Below are positions 24,927 to 29,110 of a DNA stretch of 64,000 nucleotides, piece after piece. The number at the start of each line of letters is the position of its first letter. Position 1 is the stretch's first letter. Both the position numbers and the translations under genes were made by a program. Origin of the DNA: Verrucomicrobiales bacterium (GTDB lineage Bacteria > Verrucomicrobiota > Verrucomicrobiia > Limisphaerales > UBA9464). The stretch spans positions 1-64,000 of the forward strand of contig JAIYBC010000056.1 of the NCBI GenBank assembly GCA_027488845.1, written 5' to 3'. The notes beneath the pieces are model-generated. The model was not told the origin of the DNA. It saw only the letters and a program-made list of their open reading frames with translations, and made no database searches.

Positions 24927-26333
24927 ATGTCCGACGCCGACTCCCTTTCCGAGCTCCGCGAGGCCGTCCGCCTGTCGCCGAAGAACGTCCCGTTGAGGCG
25001 GGCGTTGTCGGAGGCGTTGCTGGGCCGGGGCCACTATGCCGAGGCCGAGACCGAGCTGCGTGCGGCGCTCCAGGTCGCGCCGGACGACGTCGGTCTCAAG
25101 TTCGGCCTCGCACGGGCCTTCCACCAGCAGGGGAAGCGCAGCCATGCGCTGGTGCTGCTCGAGGACCTGGTCCGCGTGGAGTCCGCCCCGGGGAAGGCCT
25201 TCGTCCTCTACGCCAGGCTGTTGGCCGGCATCGGCGAGGTCGAGCAGGCGGTCGAGCAGTACCGGCGCGGCGTGGCCCGCGATCCCTCGGCGGCGGATCC
25301 CGAGTTCGCCGCCCGCCACGGGATCCGGCCCGTGAAGGAGGCCGCGGACACCGAGGCGGATTCCGACGAGGACACCGAGGTGCTCTATCCCGGTCCCGAG
25401 GACGAGGACGACGAGCTGCTCGACGGAAAGATCCGCGAGGCCTGGGAAGGGCCGACCGAGGAGTCGCTGCCCGAGATCGAGCGTCCGAAGATCACCTTCG
25501 CCGACGTCGGCGGCATGGAGGCCCTGAAGGAGGAGATCCGTCTCAAGATCATCCACCCGATCACCCATGCCGATCTCTACAAGGCCTACGGGAAGACCGC
25601 GGGCGGAGGCATCCTGATGTACGGACCGCCGGGATGCGGCAAGACGCACCTGGCCCGGGCCACGGCGGGCGAGATCAAGGCCGGGTTCATCTCGGTCGGG
25701 ATCCACGACGTGTTGGACATGTGGATCGGCAACAGCGAGCGGAACCTGCACCAGCTGTTCGACCAGGCCCGCCGCAACGCGCCCTGCGTGCTCTTCTTCG
25801 ACGAGGTGGACGCCCTCGGCGCCAGCCGTTCTGACATGAAGTCCAGCGCCGGCCGGCACCTCATCAACCAGTTCCTCAGCGAGCTGGACGGCGTGAAGTC
25901 GGCGAACGAGGGCGTGTTGATCCTCGGGGCCACCAACGCCCCGTGGCACCTGGACAGCGCCTTCCGCCGTCCCGGCCGTTTCGACCGGATCCTGTTCGTT
26001 CCACCGCCGGACGTCCCCGCCCGCGCCGACATCCTGCGCCTGCTCGTGAAGGGCAAGCCGATGGAGGACGTGGACTTCGAGTCGGTCGCCAAGAAGTGCG
26101 ACGGCTTCTCCGGGGCCGACCTCAAGGCGGTGGTGGACATCACCGTCGAGACCAAGCTGCGCGACGCGATGAAGACCGGCGTGCCCACGCCGATCCGAAC
26201 CAAGGACCTCGTGTCCTCGGCCGGGCAGCAGAAGGCGACGACGCGGGAATGGTTCGCGACGGCGCGCAACTACGCCCTCTACTCGAACCAGGGCGGCGTC
26301 TACGACGACATCCTGAAGTACATGAAGCTGTGA
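24927..26333 (+). CDS. TPR-AAA ATPase (single AAA module of the Cdc48/Vps4 type)
   Basis: 468 residues from ATG 24927, preceded by GGAGG at 24913. Residues 1-120 form about three TPR-like helical pairs; 135-185 is a very acidic linker; 190-450 is one classical AAA module. Key sites: Walker A G-P-P-G-C-G-K-T (233-240), pore-loop D-M-W-I-G-N-S-E, Walker B C-V-L-F-F-D-E-V-D (near 287-295), sensor-1 G-A-T-N-A-P and the arginine-finger segment R-R-P-G-R-F-D-R. By family it uses ATP to remodel or unfold proteins as a hexamer; the TPRs probably recruit clients. No protease domain or membrane segment. Two TPR-membrane genes follow on the same strand, suggesting a common process at the membrane (inference). 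Confidence 0.88.
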   Translation: MSDADSLSELREAVRLSPKNVPLRRALSEALLGRGHYAEAETELRAALQVAPDDVGLKFGLARAFHQQGKRSHALVLLEDLVRVESAPGKAFVLYARLLAGIGEVEQAVEQYRRGVARDPSAADPEFAARHGIRPVKEAADTEADSDEDTEVLYPGPEDEDDELLDGKIREAWEGPTEESLPEIERPKITFADVGGMEALKEEIRLKIIHPITHADLYKAYGKTAGGGILMYGPPGCGKTHLARATAGEIKAGFISVGIHDVLDMWIGNSERNLHQLFDQARRNAPCVLFFDEVDALGASRSDMKSSAGRHLINQFLSELDGVKSANEGVLILGATNAPWHLDSAFRRPGRFDRILFVPPPDVPARADILRLLVKGKPMEDVDFESVAKKCDGFSGADLKAVVDITVETKLRDAMKTGVPTPIRTKDLVSSAGQQKATTREWFATARNYALYSNQGGVYDDILKYMKL

Positions 26334-26474
26334 CCGGCGTCGGAAGGTGGCCGTGGGTGCGACCGCGATGCCGGCCGGGGAGGTGGATATCGAGATGCGA
26401 GCAAGGAAGCCTGCCGCCGCCGGAAACGGCATGACTGGCCGCGAAGGCGACAGGTCGGGTCCCGCACGGGTCCC

Positions 26475-27818
26475 ATGAGAGCCTTGGCGCATGCCCGCCT
26501 CCATTGGCGGCGCGGCGAGCTCGATGCCGCGGAGTTCCGACTCGAACAGGCGGCGAGGGACCAGCCGGAAACCTCATCCGTCCACGCCGAACTGGCGCTG
26601 TTGCGTGTCGCGCAGGAACGGCCCGCTGCGGCCGACGTCGCGCTGCGCGAGGCGTTCGCCCGGGATCCCGATAGCGCCTACGCACGCTACGTCCGGTCCT
26701 ACCTCCGGCTGGCCCTCTTGGGGCGAGCGGGCTGGAGGTCTCCAGGGGACCGGCTTCTGCGTGAGACGGCCCTGCTGAAGGCCATGTCGGATGTCCGGGA
26801 GGCGATCGCGCTGGAACCCTGCGAGCCGCTCTACCGCGTCCGGCTCTCGGAGCTTCTCCGTTTCCACCGGAAACCGGGCGCGGCATTGGAAGTCGCCGAG
26901 AAGGCCGTCGCCCTGGATCCTCGCAACATCCGGGCGTTGTCGGCGCTCGCGTCGGCCCTGGTCGCCTTGGGCAGGCTCGACGCGGGGCGACGCACGTTCC
27001 TTGACGCCCTTTCCCGGGATCCGGAGTCGGCGGAACTCCATGCGCAACTGGGTTGGGCGCTGGTCGAGTTGGAGGACGACTCCGCCGCAGCCCGGTCGTT
27101 TCAGGAGGCGCTCCGGCTGGATCCCTCCCTGGATGAAGCGGCCGCCGGCGCGCTGCTCTGCGCGAAGCGGGAGTCGGCCGTCTACCGATGGGTTTCGGTC
27201 CGGCTGCGTCGATTCATGAGGCGGTCCTCCACCTTCCGGGCCTCCGTCCTGTTGGGTGTCTTCCTGCCCTTTTTTGTCGCGGTCCGTCTGGCCGGTTCCG
27301 GCGCGAAGGGCCCGCTGAGGATCCTCGGCTTGTGCCTCCTCCTGTACCTTCCGGGCCTCCTCGCCTGCGGTTGGGAGCCCTTCCACAACTGGCGCGTCCG
27401 ACGTCACGCCTCCGCCCGGACATCGCTGGCCGAAGGCGTGCGTGCGGGCCGACGCCGGTTCGTCTTCCTGGTGGCCGGGACGATCCTCCTCGCCGGGATC
27501 GCCGGTCTGCTCGGCGCCTGGGATCGACGTGTGTCCCTGGGTTTCGTCGGCCTGGTTCCCGGGGCCGTCGCCTTCGCCTTGGGATGGCGCATCGGCGATT
27601 CCCGGCTTCGGCGTCGGGCCTTGGCCTACGGCGCTTCCGTGGCCGCCGCCGGCGCGCTGGCCGGCCCGTTCCTCGACCGGCACGGTTGGGCCCCGACCGG
27701 ATTGGCGTTTGGCTTATCGATGGCGTTGCCCATCCTTCCGGCCGTCGTACTGAGGAATCGGGATCGACGCTCCCAACGGGAATCCCTGCGGGAGTCCGTC
27801 CGCCGCACGCTGAAATGA
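26475..27818 (+). CDS. TPR protein with C-terminal membrane domain
   Basis: 447 residues. Residues 1-230 are tandem TPR-like repeats (A-L-R-E-A-F-A-R-D-P-D-S, A-L-E-V-A-E-K-A-V-A-L-D-P, S-F-Q-E-A-L-R-L-D-P). From about 250 to 430 there are five or so hydrophobic segments separated by Arg-rich loops, with a basic tail. No catalytic motif is seen. The last base pairs overlap the next gene as ATGA, so the two are translationally coupled. Together with the preceding TPR-AAA gene they look like a unit; the membrane domain may be the anchor and the TPRs a docking surface. Function unknown. Confidence 0.78.
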   Translation: MRALAHARLHWRRGELDAAEFRLEQAARDQPETSSVHAELALLRVAQERPAAADVALREAFARDPDSAYARYVRSYLRLALLGRAGWRSPGDRLLRETALLKAMSDVREAIALEPCEPLYRVRLSELLRFHRKPGAALEVAEKAVALDPRNIRALSALASALVALGRLDAGRRTFLDALSRDPESAELHAQLGWALVELEDDSAAARSFQEALRLDPSLDEAAAGALLCAKRESAVYRWVSVRLRRFMRRSSTFRASVLLGVFLPFFVAVRLAGSGAKGPLRILGLCLLLYLPGLLACGWEPFHNWRVRRHASARTSLAEGVRAGRRRFVFLVAGTILLAGIAGLLGAWDRRVSLGFVGLVPGAVAFALGWRIGDSRLRRRALAYGASVAAAGALAGPFLDRHGWAPTGLAFGLSMALPILPAVVLRNRDRRSQRESLRESVRRTLK

Positions 27819-29110
27819 ACCGGAATCCGAACCTGGAACGAGGCCGTCTGCTCATGGGGCAGGCACGTTTGGAGCTGGCCGCCGAGCAGTTCCGCCTGGT
27901 GCTGGCCGCCGAGCCCGACCATGCCGAGGCGCACGCGCTGCTCTCCCTGTGCCTGGTGTCGCAGGAGCGGTTCGACGAGGCCGAGTCGGAGGCGCGTCAG
28001 GCGGTCGGCTTGGCGCCGGACGACGCCTTTGCCCATTACGCCCTGGCCCGCGTGCTGATCGCGCGCAACCGGCTCGACGAAGCCGTGGCCGCCATCGCCG
28101 AGTCCCTGCGGGCGGAGCCCGAGGACGCCGACTACCATGCGGTCCACGCCGAGATCCGGTTCGCGCGCCGGGAGTGGGCGGAGACGCTCGCCGCGGCGGA
28201 GAACGGTCTCCGCTTCGATCCCGAGCACGTCGGCTGCAACAACCTCCGGGCCCTGGCGCTGGTGAAGCTGGGGCGGGCCAAGGAGGCCGGGGAGACCATC
28301 GACGCCACCTTGGCGCGTTCGCCGGAGGATGCGATGTCCCACGCCAACCGGGGTTGGACCCTGCTGGAGCAGGGCGACCGGAAGCGGGCGCTGCACCATT
28401 TCCGGGAATCCCTGCGCCTGGAGCCGAACAACGAGTGGGCCCGGTCCGGGATCGTGGAGGCGCTCAAGGCCGGCAACCCGGTCTATGCGGTGATGCTCCG
28501 CTACTTCCTCTGGATGCAGAAGCTCAGCCAGACCGCGCAGTGGGCGGTGGTCTTCGGCGGCTACATCGGGAACCGCCTGCTCGGCTCCCTCGCCGCCTCG
28601 AACCCGGAACTGGCACCGTGGGTCAACCCGATCCGCTACGCCTACCTCGTCTTCGCGCTGCTCACCTGGCTTGCCCAGCCGCTCTTCAACCTGCTCCTGC
28701 GGTTGAACCGGGACGGCCGGCTGGCCTTGAACGAGGAGGAGACCCGCAGCGCGAACCTGGTCGGCGCCTGTCTCGGGATGTCCATCGGCTCCGCGGCGCT
28801 CTGGGCCGTTTCCGGCTTTTCCGGCCGGTTCTTCCTGCCCGTGCTCCTCTTCTTCGCCCTTTCGCTGCCCGTCTCGGGCTGCTTCTCGGTCCCGCACGGC
28901 TGGCCGCGCAAGGTCATGGGCGTCTTCGCCTCCCTGATGGCGGCCTGCACGTTCGTCGCGGTCTGGACCCATGGGGTCCTCGGCGCGGGCGACTCCGCCG
29001 GCGGCCTCGCCGCCGACCTCGGGAGCGCCGCCATCGGGCTCTTCGTCGTCGGCTGCATCGCCTGCCCCTGGATCGTCAACGGGCTGATCATGGTCCGGCC
29101 ACGGCGCTGA
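27815..29110 (+). CDS. TPR protein with C-terminal multi-pass membrane domain
   Basis: 431 residues from ATG 27815, coupled to the upstream gene by a 4-bp overlap. Five to six TPR motifs fill residues 1-215 (A-R-L-E-L-A-A-E-Q-F-R-L, A-E-S-E-A-R-Q-A-V-G-L-A-P-D-D). A membrane domain with about five or six helices follows (about 230-430). The layout parallels that of the preceding gene, suggesting an old duplication with divergence. Similar TPR-membrane proteins are common in Verrucomicrobia and Planctomycetes without known function. Convergent with the serine hydrolase gene 14 bp downstream. Confidence 0.8.
   Translation: MNRNPNLERGRLLMGQARLELAAEQFRLVLAAEPDHAEAHALLSLCLVSQERFDEAESEARQAVGLAPDDAFAHYALARVLIARNRLDEAVAAIAESLRAEPEDADYHAVHAEIRFARREWAETLAAAENGLRFDPEHVGCNNLRALALVKLGRAKEAGETIDATLARSPEDAMSHANRGWTLLEQGDRKRALHHFRESLRLEPNNEWARSGIVEALKAGNPVYAVMLRYFLWMQKLSQTAQWAVVFGGYIGNRLLGSLAASNPELAPWVNPIRYAYLVFALLTWLAQPLFNLLLRLNRDGRLALNEEETRSANLVGACLGMSIGSAALWAVSGFSGRFFLPVLLFFALSLPVSGCFSVPHGWPRKVMGVFASLMAACTFVAVWTHGVLGAGDSAGGLAADLGSAAIGLFVVGCIACPWIVNGLIMVRPRR

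Follow-up and report, generated by a model that had tools for sequence, protein, structure and literature searches.

Can a bacterium pull proteins out of its membrane without destroying them? In the bacteria where AAA rings are best known to police membrane proteins, the task is credited mainly to FtsH, an enzyme that degrades the proteins it extracts. The question is raised by a locus in a 64,000-nucleotide stretch of DNA (positions 1 to 64,000, forward strand, of contig JAIYBC010000056.1, assembly GCA_027488845.1) from a Verrucomicrobiales bacterium, hereafter the window. Gene A of this locus encodes an AAA ATPase fused to tetratricopeptide repeats (TPRs), and genes B and C encode TPR proteins with membrane domains. 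A preliminary description proposed a possible undescribed membrane remodelling system. Do the three genes belong together, and what might they do? We find that A is coupled to a TPR-membrane gene across many phyla, and that the two probably form a real, still unstudied machine at the cell membrane. The reading we favour, with about even confidence, is that A and C, with B optional, are a two-component machine that extracts or disassembles membrane-bound proteins at the inner membrane without a protease.

How constant is the coupling? Named genomes were represented by the best 80 loci of at least 560 confirmed A matches. These span Planctomycetota, Verrucomicrobiota, Cyanobacteria and relatives, Bacteroidota, Chloroflexota, Fibrobacter, Actinomycetota, Myxococcota, Bacillota, Pseudomonadota and one Altiarchaeota genome. 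The AAA type had been described as rare in bacteria; it is instead patchy but widespread. A same-strand TPR-membrane open reading frame (ORF) adjoins A in 65/80 loci, compared with 25/459 other ORFs judged by the same rule and only 3/459 once the partners of A are set aside. The order is A then C at 56 loci and C then A at 13, of which 4 show both. Spacing is tight: 38/56 A-C rows lie within 20 bases and 20/68 pairs overlap by exactly 4 bases; two of the 12 C-then-A rows of the spacing table (L095 and L123) are mis-sided through over-long ORFs. A second, approximately 40% identical ATPase-partner pair is present in the same genus in reversed order (L048 2594–5175 in genome G001, where the ATPase frame has one stop, and L049 3443–6240 in G007). 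Linkage that persists through a change of order, taken with this reversed pair, is strong evidence for joint function of A and its partner. Random separation of the genes in relatives, which would have spoken against the preliminary description, did not occur for A and C, which often overlap and occur in both orders.

On plasmids, an Actinomyces oris record carries the pair, annotated as 'AAA family ATPase' and 'tetratricopeptide repeat protein' with a 4-base overlap; on a Streptomyces plasmid a gene annotated 'ATP-binding protein' has a 'hypothetical protein' next downstream.

The preliminary description suggested looking for co-occurrence of all three genes in Verrucomicrobiota and Planctomycetota. 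Among 59 genomes of the genus, family and order of the window, with its own genome counted in, A was scored at E 2e-156 or better; AAA matches of any kind occur in 59/59, and the next-best match below the cut-off is a 41% identical paralogue at 1e-98. Full-length A is present in 14/59. C matched in 14/59, reduced to 12 when G009 and G044 (E approximately 1e-26, TPR part only) were dropped; both genes are present in 12 and C alone in none. C directly adjoins A in nine of these relatives, in the window and in G025 the two are separated by another TPR-membrane gene, and in G005 the cluster is split across two contigs as A-B and B-C. In 288 genomes from across the phylum, own genome included, A was counted at E 1e-150 or better, with 30 further genomes (1e-89 and weaker) taken as containing other AAA proteins. 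The phylum of this sample is taken as Verrucomicrobiota, one of its copies being 91% identical to the protein of a named Akkermansia MAG (L073). Here A is present in 22, C in 20 and both in 20 (Fisher p 7e-29, ignoring kinship). C is downstream of A on the same strand in 20/20, directly in 19, with B between them only in the window.

The Planctomycetota were represented by 199 genomes from the phylum of Planctomycetes bacterium TBK1r. A is found in 37/199, with a TPR-membrane gene beside it in 36/37; the remaining A (G528) is at a contig end, and a different contig of that genome has a C-like gene at its edge. The TPR-membrane gene is on the same strand within 1.5 kb in 35/37, and in G503 inspection located two just upstream. 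Membrane stretches were confirmed directly in 18/36 partners, and in the others the profile match extends into the membrane part. C matched in 62/199 genomes at 1e-30; the adjacency count used 50 rows, either approximately 1e-41 or better or beside A, with weaker TPR-only matches left out. What is conserved is A together with one TPR-membrane gene rather than the full A-B-C set. The linkage foreseen in the preliminary description thus extends across many phyla for A and a TPR-membrane gene, and not for the three genes as a set.

What, then, is B? It has six hydrophobic stretches by hydropathy after its TPRs. B is absent from the close relatives G012 and G013, present in G005 and very diverged elsewhere, and for this reason A-B-C was rejected as a conserved unit. 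It also evolves faster than its neighbours, with a ratio of nonsynonymous to synonymous substitution rates (dN/dS) of 0.25 in the one same-genus genome compared and a third-position GC of 0.82, against 0.94 for A and 0.93 for C. In a tree of TPR-membrane proteins the window's B groups with the B of G005 and G025 and not with C, which suggests, with low certainty given the long branches, that it is no recent copy of C. Two TPR-membrane genes also accompany one A in Phycisphaerales, Aquimarina, another Bacteroidota genome and further genomes; multiple such genes are found in G350, G426, G470, G529 and G428, and four ORFs of this type stand in a row beside the single ATPase of G350 (L248). Because B is missing in relatives while extra TPR-membrane genes recur elsewhere, B is, as judged from its distribution and sequence, an accessory, optional second membrane partner.

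This variety bears on whether C, and B, might be the client of A rather than its anchor. AAA proteins of the MoxR or Bcs1 type each serve a single dedicated partner, and A might likewise assemble, open or recycle the membrane domain of C. The A-C pairing and its tight adjacency would fit, as would a block of eight residues (T284, W285, A287, P289, N292, R296, G301 and R302) in the membrane domain of C that is invariant in 10 orthologues. However, partners vary in helix number and length between lineages, and several TPR-membrane genes at one A suit interchangeable adaptors better than a dedicated client. We regard the client explanation as unlikely, while giving it some weight.

The coding sequences of A, B and C look real and under selection. 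They lie on the + strand at the positions first reported, B and C being coupled by ATGA, and GGAGG is present a few bases upstream of the A start codon. The start of C was set within a mechanical ORF (27188–29110) that begins too early. Against same-genus copies, dN/dS is 0.03–0.05 for A and 0.12–0.15 for C (3 genomes each). The neighbouring leuA and SMC genes give approximately 0.07 in the same comparison, so A is under strong purifying selection and constrained at least as much as two housekeeping neighbours. leuA lies upstream of the three genes, and a convergent beta-lactamase-family gene and then SMC lie downstream. A keeps the slot after leuA in 5/5 same-genus loci with the upstream flank present, the window included. 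A promoter scan of the locus found nothing, and a terminator scan was uninformative (4 sites against 2.0, standard deviation 1.8, in shuffles). At L038 (G007) and L039 (G008) A also stands directly after leuA, with no C found, and downstream of A in G007 are ORFs that resemble, by eye, a sugar-type ABC transporter set.

Could this be an anti-phage or conflict system, either related to IetAS (an AAA ATPase with a protease partner) or using a membrane effector? A is patchy, being present in only 14/59 close relatives, and matches IetA weakly at 116 bits. Yet the curated cut-off is 510 bits, there is no protease partner, the slot after leuA is constant, dN/dS of A is very low, and 0/32 matching phage records cover 80% of A. 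We consider such a role highly improbable. Membership of A in IetA itself was rejected on the score and on the partner, a TPR-membrane gene.

What kind of ATPase is A? Pfam finds one AAA domain (2.5e-40), AAA_lid_3 and TPRs, which bears out the single AAA module fused to TPRs of the preliminary description. The linker, acidic as noted there, has a net charge of -15 over 52 residues, and its acidity varies in the family from -15 to +4 (54 members). No membrane helix was found in A; hydropathy gives no membrane stretch for the A of the window's genus (L250) and none in 78/80 of the A ORFs from named genomes, with one each in L088 and L090. In an alignment of 54 diverse members, K239, T240, D292, N337, R348 and R351 are invariant, and position 293 carries E in 52 members and D in the other 2. 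Within the Walker A motif G233, P235, G236, G238, K239 and T240 are conserved in 54/54, and P234 and C237 in 53/54. Pore-loop position 266 is aromatic in every member (W 31, Y 22, F 1). From this conservation we conclude that A is an AAA protein retaining its catalytic residues and an aromatic pore loop. In a conserved C-terminal element W442 is found in 54/54 members and N448, G457 and Y459 in 50/54.

The fold of A is predicted by AlphaFold with a mean predicted local distance difference test score (pLDDT) of 89.9 and a predicted template modelling score (pTM) of 0.64; pLDDT falls below 50 in the linker, at residues 142–147 and 151–177. The closest structures by Foldseek and VIA-align are p97 D2 (Z 27.9, root-mean-square deviation (rmsd) 2.4, 263 aligned) and, tied with it, archaeal Vps4 (Z 27.5, rmsd 2.6, 263 aligned). 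In a 53-row AAA tree A groups with archaeal relatives (support 100/97), and together they are sister to yeast Vps4, itself one long-branch row (96/92, or 98/96 without one very long row). FtsH-like rows form a separate clade. The motif TN-x-PW, shared by Vps4 and 54/54 A members and found in 0/10 readable Cdc48/FtsH rows (of 13), supports the Vps4 placement. Profile scores oppose it: Cdc48 gives 217 bits, from the D2 part of TIGR01243, and CdvC 177 bits. Since grouping A with Cdc48-D2 or with FtsH was not rejected (approximately unbiased test, p-AU 0.132 and 0.12), the AAA domain of A likely, but not provably, belongs to the Vps4 branch. The bacterial rows and the archaeal rows, the latter from one Altiarchaeota genome, are sister groups; transfer from archaea, which the tree neither proves nor excludes, may have taken place. 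That genome (G548; L223, L227, L232 and L234–L237) has several A-branch AAA proteins in a lineage-specific expansion, two of which carry tandem AAA modules (944 and 963 aa).

Is A then a true Vps4 equivalent, recruited by C and dismantling a polymer of the type formed by ESCRT-III, of the endosomal sorting complexes required for transport (PspA/Vipp1 or Snf7)? The N-terminal helical region of Vps4 is the MIT domain. A shares with Vps4/CdvC the single AAA module, the aromatic pore loop, TN-x-PW, a helical N-terminal region and the nearest tree branch. It differs in having TPRs in place of MIT, with no Pfam match in the window's A to MIT or Vps4_C at E up to 0.01, in its multi-pass TPR partner and in that no ESCRT-III partner was found. 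In the window's genome (G000, 95.4% complete) a Pfam-level search, with remote homologues beyond its reach, gave no match to PspA_IM30 (PF04012) or Snf7 (PF03357), while the same families matched in 9/14 and 1/14 control genomes, respectively. Disassembly of a PspA/Snf7 polymer was therefore rejected for the window's genome, and membrane remodelling in the ESCRT sense, as the preliminary description's term might be taken, is left without support there. The name VPS4-like has been used for such ATPases (Ravi et al. 2024, PMC11237479), and tree and motif agree with it; overall we give a true Vps4 equivalent only a slim chance. Makarova et al. (2024; PMC10936438, preprint PMC11188069) report homologues of many ESCRT components in archaea, not bacteria, and infer that Vps4 derives from Cdc48 in early archaea.

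The coordinates of these features and of those of C are given in Table 1.

Table 1. Genes and protein features of the A-B-C locus, in window coordinates
Feature	Position	Strand	Basis
Gene A, TPR-AAA ATPase with a probable Vps4-like AAA module	24927..26333	+	ORF/translation; 468 aa
A, N-terminal TPR arm, eight helices, residues 3-130	24933..25316	+	Pfam TPR families, model helices
A, acidic linker from TPR arm to AAA domain	25317..25475	+	Model largely low-confidence; net charge
A, Walker A, GPPGCGKT, residues 233-240	25623..25646	+	Alignment of 54 members
A, pore loop 1, LDMWIGNSE, residues 263-271	25713..25739	+	Alignment of 54 members
A, conserved C-terminal element, residues 439-465	26241..26321	+	W-F-x-T-A-R-N-Y-A-x-Y-x-N-x-G-G-x-Y-D-D
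Gene B, second TPR-membrane protein, accessory	26475..27818	+	ORF; 447 aa
Gene C, conserved TPR-membrane partner	27815..29110	+	ORF; 431 aa
ATGA overlap, C start and B stop	27815..27818	+	Sequence
C, TPR superhelix, residues 5-218, 13 helices, predicted cytosolic	27827..28468	+	Pfam, model
C, membrane domain, about six helices, residues 239-426, predicted N-in/C-in	28529..29092	+	Model helices, hydropathy

The Pfam families in B and C are of TPR type only. The AlphaFold model of C (pLDDT 94.2, pTM 0.87) predicts a TPR arm, a bridging helix and a membrane domain; with about six helices in each of B and C, by hydropathy and, for C, by the model, the preliminary description of two TPR proteins with multi-pass membrane domains holds. 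In the PDB the O-GlcNAc transferase TPR domain (1w3b, Z 24.4, rmsd 2.6, 218 aligned) matches C best, and this resemblance, also to designed TPRs, reveals the repeat type only. In all 10 aligned orthologues basic residues are present in loops 296–306 and 358–366 and at the C-terminus. Lysine plus arginine number 2–3 and 1–3 per sequence in these presumed inner loops and 2–3 at the C-terminus, against 0–2 in the presumed outer loops. The basic loops and C-terminus imply that both ends of C, and with them the TPR arm, should face the cytosol.

A motor feeding polypeptides into a channel formed by C, for protein export or insertion, would suit both the several membrane helices of the partner and the aromatic residue of the pore loop. 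The partners, however, have from 0 to 6 membrane helices (hydropathy, cut ORFs included). Those upstream of A are often shorter, approximately 300 aa with two hydrophobic stretches; several in C-then-A order have 2 helices, and some partners only one or two. Such variable numbers weaken a role as a precise channel. Nor is there a recurring third neighbour family, as judged by clustering 278 ORFs, up to two per side, from the 80 loci. The largest cluster holds 8 further TPR-type ORFs in 8 loci; the next hold 7 ORFs from 5 loci, which by eye resemble ABC exporters, and 5 ORFs from 4 loci, likely spurious frames on the reverse strand. We think an export motor very unlikely.

How would an extracting machine work? 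C would be an inner-membrane anchor of about six helices with its TPR arm reaching into the cytosol, and A a soluble TPR protein whose single Vps4-type AAA module would form a hexamer. Through their TPR arms, either A would be docked on the membrane or both proteins would grip one client. A would then thread part of the client through its pore by means of the aromatic pore loop, and in this way a membrane protein would be extracted or a membrane-bound complex taken apart. A, B and C gave no match to a protease domain in the Pfam and profile libraries, where only AAA or TPR stretches of protease families were hit, in keeping with the preliminary description. With no attached protease the product would be released, the outcome being extraction, disassembly or rescue. 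The earlier suggestion that the ATPase extracts or disassembles membrane-bound complexes fits TPR anchors that face a protease-free AAA module of the threading type; we infer the contact of A with C and the client.

Several observations weigh against this extraction machine. TPRs are promiscuous, which makes a client shared by A and C a guess, and no recurring third gene hints at a client in the 80 loci. The membrane domain of C matched no Pfam family, and the PDB search was filled by TPR matches, so that its fold was barely probed. The range of helix numbers among partners, already described, tells against it as well. Some copies of A also stand apart from a partner. Of the 15 named-genome loci where none was counted, seven (L059, L064, L068, L077, L087, L108 and L121) are at contig ends or involve a cut gene, L097 has a divergent TPR-membrane neighbour, and at L105, L122 and L128 the gene beside A is TPR-like or long but does not pass the membrane test. 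The remaining L055, L075, L076 and L089 have A without a TPR-membrane neighbour. In G007, G008, G275 (L245) and G292 (L246) A is without C and without a TPR-membrane neighbour. A further copy of A (E 1e-151 to 1e-155), unaccompanied by a second C match, is present in G124, G245, G248 and G257. Such copies imply that A is able to work by itself or with a partner encoded elsewhere. The reverse, a six-helix C-like gene with a strong match and no A match, was seen solely in G519.

Some details of these loci are added here. The A copies at L245 and L246 resemble those of named Verrucomicrobiaceae and Prosthecobacter. At the Chloroflexota locus the contig ends just past A, and the neighbour at the archaeal locus fails the membrane test.

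Is the system new? A VPS4-like AAA+ ATPase beside a TPR/6TM gene in several bacterial lineages, with ACB74714.1 as the example and 'membrane proximal action' as the proposed role, is mentioned in one sentence by Ravi et al. (2024, mSystems, PMC11237479). A and C fit that description; the likeness is one of description, accession ACB74714.1 aside, and the two are very probably the same system. Section 18 of that paper, where the sentence stands, is silent on the TPR arm of the ATPase, on the C-to-A order, on second partners and on how often the genes co-occur, and takes the mechanism no further than 'membrane proximal action'. Our search of the open-licence PMC literature, at the level of titles and abstract openings, found no experimental study of the pair. 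In view of that one sentence by Ravi et al., the word 'undescribed' in the preliminary description has to be qualified.

Other known ATPases were compared with A and rejected as families for it. Cdc48/p97 D2 gives the best profile score, one of the two tied best folds and an M-W-x-G pore loop like that of A. In contrast to Cdc48/p97, A has one AAA module and no N-domain, and its 217 bits lie below the cut-off of 803. FtsH resembles A as a classical AAA module at the membrane, but A lacks the M41 protease domain and fused membrane helices and scores 206 against a cut-off of 600 bits. Msp1 carries its own membrane anchor. A has none, its N-terminus consisting of TPR helices, and anchoring would be left to another protein with TPRs; membership in Msp1/ATAD1 was rejected on these grounds. 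The likeness lies in the proposed work, that of a protease-free AAA ring extracting membrane proteins, as described for ATAD1 (PMC9273213).

Taken as a whole, the preliminary description was sound in what it observed and in part in how it was interpreted. We put forward a wider reading tentatively, as possible rather than probable: that A belongs to a widespread, ESCRT-independent extractase of the Vps4 class in bacteria and at least one archaeal lineage, a protease-free counterpart of Msp1 and Vps4 in which a TPR-AAA ring is served by dedicated membrane adaptors with TPRs that can be swapped and multiplied, changing the client. The pair is directly testable, as it comprises two genes with clear active-site residues and occurs in cultivable hosts. 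The presence of the same branch in bacteria and in an Altiarchaeota genome has a bearing on the origin of Vps4-type ATPases. If the extraction machine is real, many bacteria could take membrane complexes apart or rescue them, as Msp1, p97 and Vps4 allow eukaryotes to do.

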